Source: Methanococcoides methylutens MM1 (GTDB taxonomy: Archaea > Halobacteriota > Methanosarcinia > Methanosarcinales > Methanosarcinaceae). Taken from it: a stretch of 64,000 nucleotides of DNA. Each line of letters begins with the position of its first letter. Position 1 is the stretch's first letter. Position numbers and translations under genes: made by a program. Where the stretch lies: positions 1,674,001 to 1,738,000 of the forward strand of contig NZ_CP009518.1 in NCBI RefSeq assembly GCF_000970325.1, in the 5' to 3' direction. The notes beneath the pieces are model-generated. The model saw nothing but the letters and a program-made list of their open reading frames with translations, had not been told where the DNA came from and made no database searches. Positions 9,932-44,128 of this stretch are shown piece by piece.

Positions 9932-10531
9932 TTGGTTTCATCCACAATTATCATTATTCTTTGCCTTGTGGCTTTTGCAGTTATTCACAGCATCACAGCA
10001 AGCCTGCCTTTTAAAAAAATGGTAGTGAATGCACTGGGTTCAAAGGTAGAGACATTCTACCTACCGGTATACAGCCTGATCGCAGTGATAACGATACTTC
10101 CGGTGGTCTATCTGCTCTATCTGAACCCGGGACGTGTCCTCTACATAGTCCCATCCCCCTGGCGCTGGGTCATGGTATCCGGACAATTGATCGCTGCACT
10201 GGCAGCGCCAATGGCCTTCCGTGATTCACCCCAGAGGTTCAAGTTGCATTTACAGCTCTCCAGACCGGAGACCCCTGAATCAGAACCACTGAACATCAAA
10301 GGAATTTTCCGTTGGATAAGAGACCCGTTCCTGGCCTCTGGGCTGGTCATTATCTGGCTTACCCCCTTTATGACCGTCAACCTGCTCATCGTCTATATTA
10401 TAACTACTATATACTTCTACATAGGATCTGTCCATGTGGAAAAAAGACTGGTTTCACAGTTTGGTGATGAATACCTGGAGTACAAGAAGAAGGTTCACAG
10501 GTTCATTCCTTTGATAAAAGGACACTACTGA
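9932..10531 (+). CDS. Integral membrane methyltransferase-like protein (NnrU/ICMT family)
   Basis: A 199-residue protein with about five membrane segments. The C-terminal half (GIFRWIRDPFLASGL ... VEKRLVSQFGDEYLEYKKKVHRFIP) has the layout of the NnrU / isoprenylcysteine carboxyl methyltransferase-like family: an R-x-P-type motif, two membrane helices, then E-x-x-L-x-x-x-F-G-x-x-Y-x-x-Y. Members of this fold use S-adenosylmethionine at the membrane face. The substrate here is unknown. The start codon is TTG, preceded by GGGGAG at a spacing of eight. It stands alone. Confidence 0.75.
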   Translation: MVSSTIIIILCLVAFAVIHSITASLPFKKMVVNALGSKVETFYLPVYSLIAVITILPVVYLLYLNPGRVLYIVPSPWRWVMVSGQLIAALAAPMAFRDSPQRFKLHLQLSRPETPESEPLNIKGIFRWIRDPFLASGLVIIWLTPFMTVNLLIVYIITTIYFYIGSVHVEKRLVSQFGDEYLEYKKKVHRFIPLIKGHY

Positions 10532-42401: not shown

Positions 42402-42761
42402 ATGACAGGAAACACAGAAGAAGTAAAGCAGGTAAAAGGCTCCATGCCAAAAGCCATCAAGATGGCAAAGGAAATGGACGATGACTTCGGCCAGGGACTT
42501 GCAGGGTTCTACAAAGCCATCTGGAAGGACAGGGAAGACGGGCTTTCAATGAAGAACAAGCACCTCATGGTTTTCGCCATAGCATGTTCAAAGAACAACA
42601 CCAATAGTGCCAAGAAGATCCTCGTGAAACTCAAGAAGCACGGTGCTACAAGGGCAGAGGTTCTGGACGCAATGATGATGGCAGCATGGACCGGGGGCAT
42701 CCAGAACTTTACTGACATCAGCACTGATGTGCTGCCTGAGATGGATAAACTTGGTTATTAA
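42402..42761 (+). CDS. Carboxymuconolactone decarboxylase-family (AhpD-like) protein
   Basis: A 119-residue helical protein: GLAGFYKAIWKDREDGLSMKNKHLMVFAIACSKNNTNSAKKILVKLKKHGATRAEVLDAMMMAAWTGG is the family block. Only the first Cys of the usual C-x-x-C is kept (ACSKNNTN), so a standard thiol relay is unlikely. It lies five bases after the ferritin stop, using a ribosome site (AGGTGA) that contains that stop, so the two are co-translated. A role in peroxide handling beside iron storage is plausible but unproved. Confidence 0.83.
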   Translation: MTGNTEEVKQVKGSMPKAIKMAKEMDDDFGQGLAGFYKAIWKDREDGLSMKNKHLMVFAIACSKNNTNSAKKILVKLKKHGATRAEVLDAMMMAAWTGGIQNFTDISTDVLPEMDKLGY

Positions 42762-42793
42762 GACCTGAGAAAGGGTCTTAACTTCTTTTTTAT
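42758..42793 (+). terminator. Intrinsic terminator of the ferritin operon
   Basis: TTAAGACC (42758-42765), loop of eight, GGTCTTAA (42774-42781) is a perfect 8-bp stem beginning at the stop codon, followed by CTTCTTTTTTA. Confidence 0.75.
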
Positions 42794-42837
42794 CGGATCG
42801 ATCTCAACCTGCCTTTTCCTTATAGCTAATTACACAT

Positions 42838-42906
42838 CCGGACCGGGAGGTAGCATTCCCCCGTACTGTCAGTGAGGTGTTGAGCATAGCTCATCACCTC
42901 GGTCCG
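42838..42906. ncRNA. Candidate structured RNA between convergent genes
   Basis: CGGACCG (42839-42845) pairs with CGGTCCG (42900-42906), closing a region that contains a long hairpin, GAGGTGTTGAGC (42874-42885), loop ATA, GCTCATCACCTC (42889-42900; one mismatch, outermost pair shared with the closing stem). A smaller GGGA/TCCC hairpin (42845-42860) sits beside it, so a three-way junction is possible. A TATA-like TTATAGC lies at 42820-42826 on the + strand. It follows the terminator of the ferritin operon, so it is not that operon's tail. On the other strand it would be the 3' end of the ahbC mRNA. No known family is recognised. Confidence 0.45.
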
Positions 42907-42928
42907 CGCTCCAGAAGCGAGATCTGGC

Positions 42929-44128
42929 TTAGTCGTCGTAATAACCGATCTCTTCCTTTGTCAGGTAACATGCAGGGTCATCTGCCCAGACATTGCCGTA
43001 CACAGCCTCAGCCCGTACACGGAAATTGCCGTTGCAGACATCGAACCACTTGCACTTTGCACACCTGTCGGCATTTTCCTTGATGAGAGGCTTCCTGTCC
43101 TTAAGACCTGACATAAGCTCATCGTCAAGGTCTGTCCAGATCTCACTGAACTTCCTTTCCTTCACATTGCCGAAGGTGTAGTGTCTCCAGAACTGGTCAG
43201 GGTGTACTGAACCATCCCATGAAACACAGCCAAAGCCGATGCCTGTGGAATTACCACGGTTCATCTGCAGAAGCTCGTAAACCTCATCTGCACGCTCAGG
43301 GTTCTCCTCTGCCAGCCTCATGTAGATGTACGGACCGTCACAGTGGTTGTCCACTGTCAGGACCTCAACAGGCAATCCCTTGTCATGAAGCTGCTTTGTG
43401 CGGTCCATGATCAGGTCCACCGTCTTGCGGCTGTCTTCCAGTGAGAGGTCATCATCGATGATCTTGGTACCCCTTCCGGCATAGACCAGATGATAGAAAC
43501 AGATGCGAGGGATGTTCTCTTCCTCGAGCATATCGAATATCGCAGGAATGTCAGCTACATTCTGCTTGTTAATGGTAAAACGCAGTCCCACCTTGATGCC
43601 TTCTCTCTGGCAGTTGCGAAGACCAGCCATTGCAGCATCGAAAGCACCTTTCATGCCACGAAACTTATCGTTGGTCTCACGCACACCATCAATGGAAATA
43701 CCCACATAGGAAAGACCGATCTTCTTGAGCGTCTTTGCCATTTCCTCGTCGATAAGAGTACCATTGGTGGAGATCACCGCACGCAGTCCTTTGGAGATCG
43801 CGTATTCGGCAAGCTCAGGAAGATCCTTGCGCATCAGCGGTTCGCCTCCTGAGAAAAGGACCACCGGTGAACCGAACTCTGCAAGGTCATTGATCAGTTC
43901 CTTGCCCTGCTCGGTGGTAAGTTCGTCCTTGTAATCAATGTCCTTTGATTGTGCATAGCAGTGAACACAGCGAAGGTTGCAGCGCCTGGTCACGTTCCAG
44001 ACAACAACAGGCTTCTTGTCCTTTGCGAATTGCAGCAGGTGTGAAGGAAGTCGTTTTGAATCACGCCCGTAACGAAGGGCGTCTGATGGTTCAACGGTCC
44101 CGCAATAGAGTTTTGAGATTCCTATCAT
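42929..44128 (-). CDS. ahbC: 12,18-didecarboxysiroheme deacetylase (radical SAM)
   Basis: A 399-residue radical SAM enzyme of the alternative heme pathway, which removes acetate side chains from didecarboxysiroheme to give Fe-coproporphyrin III. The N-terminus MIGISKLYCGTVEPSDALRYGR is typical of AhbC. The cluster motif is CNLRCVHCYAQS, followed by LFSGGEPLMR. The C-terminal SPASM-like Cys are in CAKCKWFDVCNGNFRVRAEA. The family's length is about 390-400. GGAGG is the ribosome site. It is the last gene of a cobA-hemD-ahbC operon. Confidence 0.9.
   Translation of the reverse strand: MIGISKLYCGTVEPSDALRYGRDSKRLPSHLLQFAKDKKPVVVWNVTRRCNLRCVHCYAQSKDIDYKDELTTEQGKELINDLAEFGSPVVLFSGGEPLMRKDLPELAEYAISKGLRAVISTNGTLIDEEMAKTLKKIGLSYVGISIDGVRETNDKFRGMKGAFDAAMAGLRNCQREGIKVGLRFTINKQNVADIPAIFDMLEEENIPRICFYHLVYAGRGTKIIDDDLSLEDSRKTVDLIMDRTKQLHDKGLPVEVLTVDNHCDGPYIYMRLAEENPERADEVYELLQMNRGNSTGIGFGCVSWDGSVHPDQFWRHYTFGNVKERKFSEIWTDLDDELMSGLKDRKPLIKENADRCAKCKWFDVCNGNFRVRAEAVYGNVWADDPACYLTKEEIGYYDD

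Follow-up and report, generated by a model that had tools for sequence, protein, structure and literature searches.

A structured element between the ferritin operon and ahbC

The window analysed here is a 64,000-nt stretch of the genome of Methanococcoides methylutens MM1 (a 2.39-Mb single contig, labelled G000 below). Within it, the stretch at 42838–42906 lies in the gap between a ferritin/CMD operon on the + strand and the convergent gene ahbC on the − strand (TIGR04546 match of 751 bits, cut-off 650), and an initial annotation had proposed for this gap a structured RNA with a possible link to iron storage or heme synthesis. The stems exist, but the borders at 42838 and 42906 were wrong, as the span matched by our covariance model R1 is 42868–42928 (+) and the structure runs past 42906 to 42927. 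This element consists of a hairpin (H2) and a pseudoknot (H1), and under the explanation that we consider probable as a whole, the window feature is one copy, about 60 nt long, of a dispersed structured mini-element. Throughout, + denotes the tRNA-sense strand and − the ahbC mRNA strand.

Read from the sequence, H2 occupies 42874–42900 (+) and is the 12-position hairpin with one mismatch that had been noted before, with arms GAGGTGTTGAGC/GCTCATCACCTC, a T-T mismatch and the 3-nt loop ATA. The linker GGTC (42901–42904, +), which lies inside the formerly proposed 3′ closing arm, joins H2 to H1 (42905–42927, +), an H-type pseudoknot in which stem S1 pairs 42905–42907 with 42917–42919 and stem S2 pairs 42911–42915 with 42923–42927. 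One base beyond the end of H1 stands the ahbC stop codon TAA (42929–42931, −). Folding of 42825–42925 gave −36.8 kcal/mol on the + strand (z −3.45), with 1 of 200 shuffles equally good, and z −2.79 on the − strand of the same region, with 2 of 200 shuffles equally good.

The unit had been thought to be closed by a 7-bp stem. Its arms CGGACCG (42839–42845) and CGGTCCG (42900–42906) are indeed complementary, and the small GC hairpin described with them appears in the predicted fold, but the flank holding the 5′ arm and this hairpin (42838–42865, +) is not common to the family. A complement of at least 7 nt in the 40 nt before H2 was present in 1 of 97 distinct copies, that of the window (mean shuffle chance 0.006); two copies reached 6, and the orthologous copy in the nearest relative (G008) had no closing complement of 6 or more. 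Positions 42838–42854 had no match in the MM1 genome at E 10, one copy aligned from 42855 and the rest from 42866 or later, and similarity of the window copy to the full unit described below ends 8 nt upstream of H2. Being private to 1 of 97 copies, the closing stem was rejected as part of the element, and a tRNA fossil within it was rejected because the flank is not shared. A possible TATA box had also been proposed, in a flank that fails to align with relatives.

A dispersed repeat family in Methanosarcinaceae

A DNA search of the MM1 genome with 42760–42935 recovered the right-hand part of the query in 7 further places (75–97% identity, E 4e−23 to 5e−6) besides some weaker matches, giving at least 8 copies including that of the window. 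By DNA search, 16 of 60 genomes matched (MM1 included), among them all 10 other Methanococcoides genomes with 2–6 matches each. The covariance model R1, built from 37 copies, scored the window copy, itself one of the 37, at 88.3 bits (E 4.5e−20; G000:C1:1716868–1716928:+). With MM1 included in every count, R1 matched 67 of 111 Methanosarcinaceae genomes at E 0.01, where many low-ranked matches are weak, 65 of 237 genomes of the class at E 0.001, nine of them outside the family (eight in one other family and one in another), and 24 of 392 genomes of the phylum at E 1e−4, all in Methanosarcinaceae. All 25 named sequences with the exact core belonged to Methanococcoides, Methanolobus or Methanosarcinaceae. 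Matches of R1 in the large-genome genera were weak, yet the variant core pattern of these genera was found in 33 of the 111 family genomes and at up to 39 places in one genome, with 0 for the reversed control.

In the large-genome genera, the dispersed variant TCGTGCTCCCGAAGCGAAACTCGGG (L130, L132–L136) occurs at up to 39 places in a genome if 2 mismatches are tolerated; differences among its copies suggest one more covarying base pair, and the end of some copies is repeated in short tandem arrays. Another family has divergent members (L139–L142), in which S1 reads CCC/GGG or CTC/GAG and which have no tRNA within ~700 nt.

No viral contig carried the exact core in a search for exact matches to one pattern, and viral carriage was rejected on this result. 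For the window element no Rfam family exceeded the gathering cut-off and nothing below it was better than chance, while at 13 further loci only tRNA and rRNA passed. Among the literature matches listed, no title or abstract opening described this repeat family, which is no proof of novelty; the window hairpin appears to belong to an undescribed family of mobile repeats and not to be an iron/heme regulator.

Covariation of hairpin and pseudoknot

The H1 consensus is CGC-GCT-CCAGA-A-GCG-NNN-TCTGG, and its two stems cross, which makes it a pseudoknot. Variants that still pair were found for S1 (CGC/GCG, CCC/GGG, CTC/GAG) and for S2 (CCAGA/TCTGG, CCCGA/TCGGG, TCCGA/TCGGA, CCTGA/TCAGG, CAAGA/TCTTG), in a tally that used the best-pairing length of the third loop and so leans to pairing. 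A gapless alignment of 79 rows, which made no such choice, had 91.2% of cells paired, compared with 85.3% when shuffled and 14–46% when slid. It held 18 two-sided cells against 4.5 in shuffles, and its covariation score was reached in 0 of 500 shuffles; five pairs showed two-sided change, a count reached by 18 of 500. These 79 rows (51 distinct) derive from the 97 distinct copies, from which 3 were left out for a broken or odd H1 and 15 because the aligner misplaced their 4-nt third loop.

The whole element was assessed on the 65 of the 97 copies that are exactly 61 nt long. Here, 89.1% of cells were paired, two-sided cells numbered 80 compared with 24.5 in shuffles, and 0 of 500 shuffles reached the covariation score. 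For H2 alone, 86.1% of cells were paired and two-sided changes affected 8 of the 12 pairs; its triloop is often purine-N-A, and in 21 of the 65 copies two G-A oppositions occupy sites that are G-C and A-T in others. Comparison of sequences thus supports both the predicted hairpin and the predicted pseudoknot, and with them the earlier proposal of a structured element.

Units at tRNA 3′ ends

Neighbourhoods were evaluated for 104 copies from related methanogens whose sequences, 60-nt flanks included, all differ, identical tandem units being counted once. In 54 of them, a same-strand tRNA gene lay at most 450 nt upstream (Val-TAC 15, Pro 13, Ile 9, Val-CAC 7, Cys 7, Val-GAC 3), and in 32 of these 54 the linked tRNA's own 3′ end was repeated directly after H1 (score over 11; 0 of 10,800 shuffles). 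By type, this repeat was present in 12 of 25 Val, 11 of 13 Pro, 5 of 9 Ile and 4 of 7 Cys copies; wider windows gave 34 of 54, but as one of these (L059) repeats only the downstream flank of the tRNA, the stricter figure was adopted. The best match was to the copy's own tRNA type in 11 of 11 Pro and 4 of 4 Cys repeats. For most Val, Ile and Pro rows, the repeat begins in the T loop, at 17–21 nt from the tRNA end; for Cys it begins at 11 nt, and its right border is variable. Sequence of a tRNA end also followed H1 in 11 of the 50 copies that have no upstream tRNA.

In this arrangement, the unit has the intact tRNA on one side and, on the other, a repeat of roughly its last 16–21 nt (11 for Cys). 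Full units are 81–163 bp long, carry H2–H1 at the distal end and contain no gene. The distance from tRNA end to model start was ~80 nt in most Methanococcoides Val units, 11–58 nt in the first units of Methanolobus-type genomes, and −1 (Val) or 33–40 (Pro) in the ANME-3-type genus. Five MM1 copies lie within 1447–1479 kb beside tRNA-Val, and three copies in the large-genome genera adjoin tRNA-Val fragments.

The tRNA-Ile locus was compared across the 11 genus genomes. G003 has one 163-bp unit, G002 has two and G010 has three at 163-nt steps, and the sequence past the last unit in these three genomes equals the empty site of G009. The exact H1 core was absent from the 560 nt following tRNA-Ile in G009, G006, G007, G001 and G005, with weak R1 matches downstream in G001 and G005, and G004, G008 and G000 have one core ~200 nt downstream in an older-looking form.

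Other arrangements were observed around tRNA and rRNA genes. Three MM1 rRNA operons (L055, L056, L057) have the order 23S-5S-tRNA-Cys-5S and a divergent H2–H1 ~200 nt past the last 5S, and opposite-orientation copies at L146 (G000:C1:2383596–2383652) and L037 abut the 3′ end of tRNA-Pro. Tandem 17-nt H1-like hairpins with a 22-nt period stand beside copies in L058 (7327–7453, six including its own H1), L026, L045 and L055. A ~20-kb island (L008/L058/L059, G000:C1 ~1459–1479 kb) extends from a 46-nt tRNA-Val fragment with a PF16795 integrase to an intact tRNA-Val and has, at both ends, the same spacer and an H2–H1 copy.

Element borders and sites at ahbC and acs

In 37 chosen Methanococcoides copies, similarity upstream of H2 ranged from 1 nt to a whole tRNA. 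By eye, the 3′ border in most copies is ATCTGG plus one base, and some extend into H1-like tandem repeats. Copies also occupy gaps between convergent genes.

At ahbC, the element was present in 2 of the 11 genus genomes, MM1 and G008, the latter being the nearest relative by ahbC (95%). The other nine all have ahbC and show an inverted repeat across its stop codon, with T-rich sequence after it in most of them (by eye); in three of them (G004, G001, G006) the neighbour of ahbC is not the ferritin operon. The G008 gene retains two final residues that are missing from ahbC of MM1. As the ahbC copy is confined to 2 of 11 genomes and sister copies adjoin tRNA-Val, -Ile, -Pro and -Cys, acs and other genes, we rejected the suggestion of a small RNA linked to iron storage or heme synthesis, and no iron/heme connection of the element is indicated.

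The complete terminator reported upstream of the gap was confirmed at 42758–42791 (+), where a 9-bp stem (42758–42781) and a T run end the ferritin/CMD operon; aligned congeners that have this operon at the site possess a comparable stem and T run (by eye). A terminator scan of 42700–43000 returned only this terminator. In the element itself, no hairpin with a T run behind it, as in an intrinsic terminator, was identified, and no terminator-like T run follows the element on the ahbC strand (−).

The 3′ end of acs carries a copy in 9 of the 11 genus genomes. Here, H2 retains 10–12 of its 12 pairs in the 8 scorable copies, whereas only 3 of 9 have an intact S1, as though H2 alone were maintained. 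A decayed tRNA-Val gene adjoins the acs copy in MM1 (L058 ~9960–10040). In G000 and G008, acs is flanked by copies, as are two genes in G007, an arrangement that prompted the idea of a gene-cassette or integron-like array.

Probable mobility of the element and rival explanations

The element is dispersed and probably inserts, because 0–3 units are found at tRNA-Ile, the ahbC site is occupied in 2 of 11 genomes, and tRNA ends are repeated beside the copies. Our best explanation, which we regard as probable, is a dispersed, insertion-prone structured mini-element of Methanosarcinaceae that occurs alone or as the distal end of the 81–163 bp unit, and it builds on the repeat family, the covariation of hairpin and pseudoknot, the tRNA-end direct repeats and the difference between empty and occupied sites. 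In Methanococcoides, Methanolobus and ANME-3-type genomes, tRNA 3′ ends would be a frequent home; since the unit stands between the intact tRNA and the duplicated end, the tRNA is preserved and tandem stacking is possible. The ahbC copy probably arrived in the common ancestor of the MM1 species and its nearest relative, where it would have replaced the inverted repeat over the stop codon. It probably has no regulatory task: at ahbC it would have no role at all or act as a plain 3′ stem-loop, which is the most that H2 would provide, as suggested by its upkeep beside acs.

The unit would be non-autonomous, mobilised in trans by an enzyme acting on tRNA 3′ ends, with H2 or H1 serving as recognition structure. 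The most likely mover, which we name tentatively, may be a tyrosine recombinase that uses the shared tRNA end as att site; this route fits the tRNA-end identity, and at least one copy (L008) adjoins the PF16795 integrase. Alternative movers would be a casposase, reverse transcription or short-homology recombination. Cas1 was found in 10 and RVT_1 in 5 of the 11 genus genomes, and a reverse transcriptase as mover was rejected on the lack of an RVT_1 match in MM1. One Cas1 match in MM1 (L187, G000:C1:1918179–1919012) lies in a 405-aa frame, near in size to other genus frames, with no R1 match within ~1.5 kb.

Several points weigh against this explanation. Insertion is deduced from present and absent sites and was not directly caught, and one to three units could arise by unequal crossing-over after a single insertion. 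No mobilising enzyme was identified, and units of this size have no room for its gene; no R1 match lay within ~1.5 kb of 20 Cas1 matches, although casposon ends may be farther out, and RVT_1 is missing from MM1. A clear end repeat is wanting in 22 of the 54 tRNA-linked copies, and only 7 of 12 Val and 2 of 5 Ile repeats match their own type best, the Val and Ile ends being too alike to discriminate. In the large-genome genera, six non-fragment copies were read without a tRNA within 700 nt. The copy at L058:14065 breaks inside H1, so that the 3′ border is not strictly constant, and the flanks of the two ahbC carriers do not align, which leaves the 5′ junction there undefined. Finally, kinship among copies inflates the covariation shuffle tests, and the copies are best matches, not a random sample.

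Compatible with the insertion-prone mini-element, and not exclusive of it, is an unlikely though credible origin as remnants of tRNA-integrating islands, in which H2–H1 would be the arm region by attP of integrase-bearing elements and the mini-units deletion leftovers. Consistent with this are the copy that adjoins both an archaeal phage integrase and a tRNA-Val fragment of 46 nt, the cluster of five MM1 copies next to tRNA-Val, and the tRNA-end sequences after H1 in copies that have no upstream tRNA. The tandem units measured at Val, Ile, Pro and Cys, at 81–163 bp and gene-free, argue the other way, as does the fragment by the integrase, which corresponds to tRNA positions 30–75 and is longer than the mini-unit repeats.

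It seems improbable that the family is an archaeal counterpart of short interspersed nuclear elements (SINEs), with a tRNA-spacer-hairpin-pseudoknot transcript copied back to DNA or joined by a Cas1-solo integrase. Targets would be tRNA 3′ ends and gene ends, the tRNA end itself supplying the target; the structured 3′ end would produce a mostly constant 3′ border, and 5′ loss would produce varied starts. The varied 5′ reach of the 37 copies and their mostly constant 3′ border, judged by eye, may reflect such an origin or later decay, which can mimic it, and the partner reverse transcriptase is absent from MM1.

We consider quite improbable a functional small RNA that is transcribed from the tRNA-sense strand, folds into hairpin and pseudoknot and acts in trans, a reading that includes use of the tRNA promoter at tRNA sites and independent transcription at ahbC. 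The pseudoknot with its conserved loops and compensatory changes, the tRNA linkage across several genera and the better fold of H2 on the tRNA strand (65 of the 97 copies, with the reverse in 26) speak for it, but presence at the same site differs between close species, neither strand is favoured when the element is folded as a whole (51 vs 46), and no Rfam family matches. Very improbable is a 3′ stem-loop of the ahbC mRNA, acting as terminator or exonuclease block and retained for ahbC function: it stands one base off the stop codon, where nine congeners have an inverted repeat, and H2 is kept at acs in 9 of 11 genomes, but the ahbC strand lacks a T run and is the strand on which the family's H2 folds less well, and the same element lies near unrelated genes and tRNAs while being at ahbC in 2 of 11 genomes only.

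Under the mini-element explanation, these results describe a pseudoknotted family that stacks at tRNA ends in one methanogen family, remove a false lead to an iron/heme regulatory RNA, and offer the tRNA-Ile locus, with its 0 to 3 units, as a ready site for watching insertion.

Comparison with known systems

Integrative elements that use tyrosine recombinases leave a direct repeat of the tRNA 3′ end and an intact tRNA, according to a review (PMC8371274), and the archaeal units do likewise. A tRNA-end identity block at both ends, with the tRNA restored, was found for 32 of the 54 tRNA-linked copies, but an integrase gene inside the element has no room in units of 81–163 bp.

Casposons, which are Cas1-solo transposons, resemble the archaeal units in inserting at tRNA 3′ ends and leaving a short direct repeat, and the Methanosarcina mazei casposase joins even single-stranded DNA ends and single-stranded RNA in vitro, according to two publications (PMC4046053, PMC6977970). 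Unlike the short, gene-free archaeal units, casposons carry genes (Cas1-solo, PolB) and nearly always terminal inverted repeats, none of which were seen when the archaeal units were inspected by eye. The casposon duplication overlaps the last 4–7 nt of the tRNA, whereas the archaeal repeat starts farther in, at 17–21 nt for most Val, Ile and Pro rows and at 11 nt for Cys. Membership among casposons was rejected, as repeat register and unit size do not fit. Repetitive extragenic palindromic sequences (REP), bacterial interspersed mosaic elements (BIME) and palindromic repeats like miniature inverted-repeat transposable elements (MITE) are likewise short, structured, dispersed and intergenic; unlike these, the archaeal element is accompanied by direct repeats of tRNA ends and contains a pseudoknot whose loops are conserved, and by eye it has no inverted ends.

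The nearest known arrangement is that of Escherichia coli K-12, in which 3.1 units of 178 bp follow directly downstream of tyrV. In the tyrT/tyrV repeats, for which the archaeal family offers an object of comparison, the last 18 nt of the tRNA recur at 178-nt steps, like the archaeal tRNA-end repeats, and by eye the repetition begins within the T loop, as in the archaeal Val, Ile and Pro units. The archaeal units share the defining arrangement: they follow a tRNA in tandem and repeat its 3′ end. No sequence homology with the E. coli unit was found, the best R1 match inside the repeats reaching 2.1 bits, in a comparison that covered one tRNA locus and did not seek dispersed copies. In E. coli SK1144, which has two tRNA-Tyr genes, a coding gene follows 17 bp downstream and no array is present. 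The E. coli locus has an annotated small RNA, rttR (RtT RNA), whereas no such RNA is known for the archaeal family; the two arrays are alike in plan but not in sequence. If the SINE-like origin were true, the archaeal units would represent a third kind of tRNA-end insertion besides integrases and casposons, and the principle would possibly be common to the E. coli tyrT repeats.
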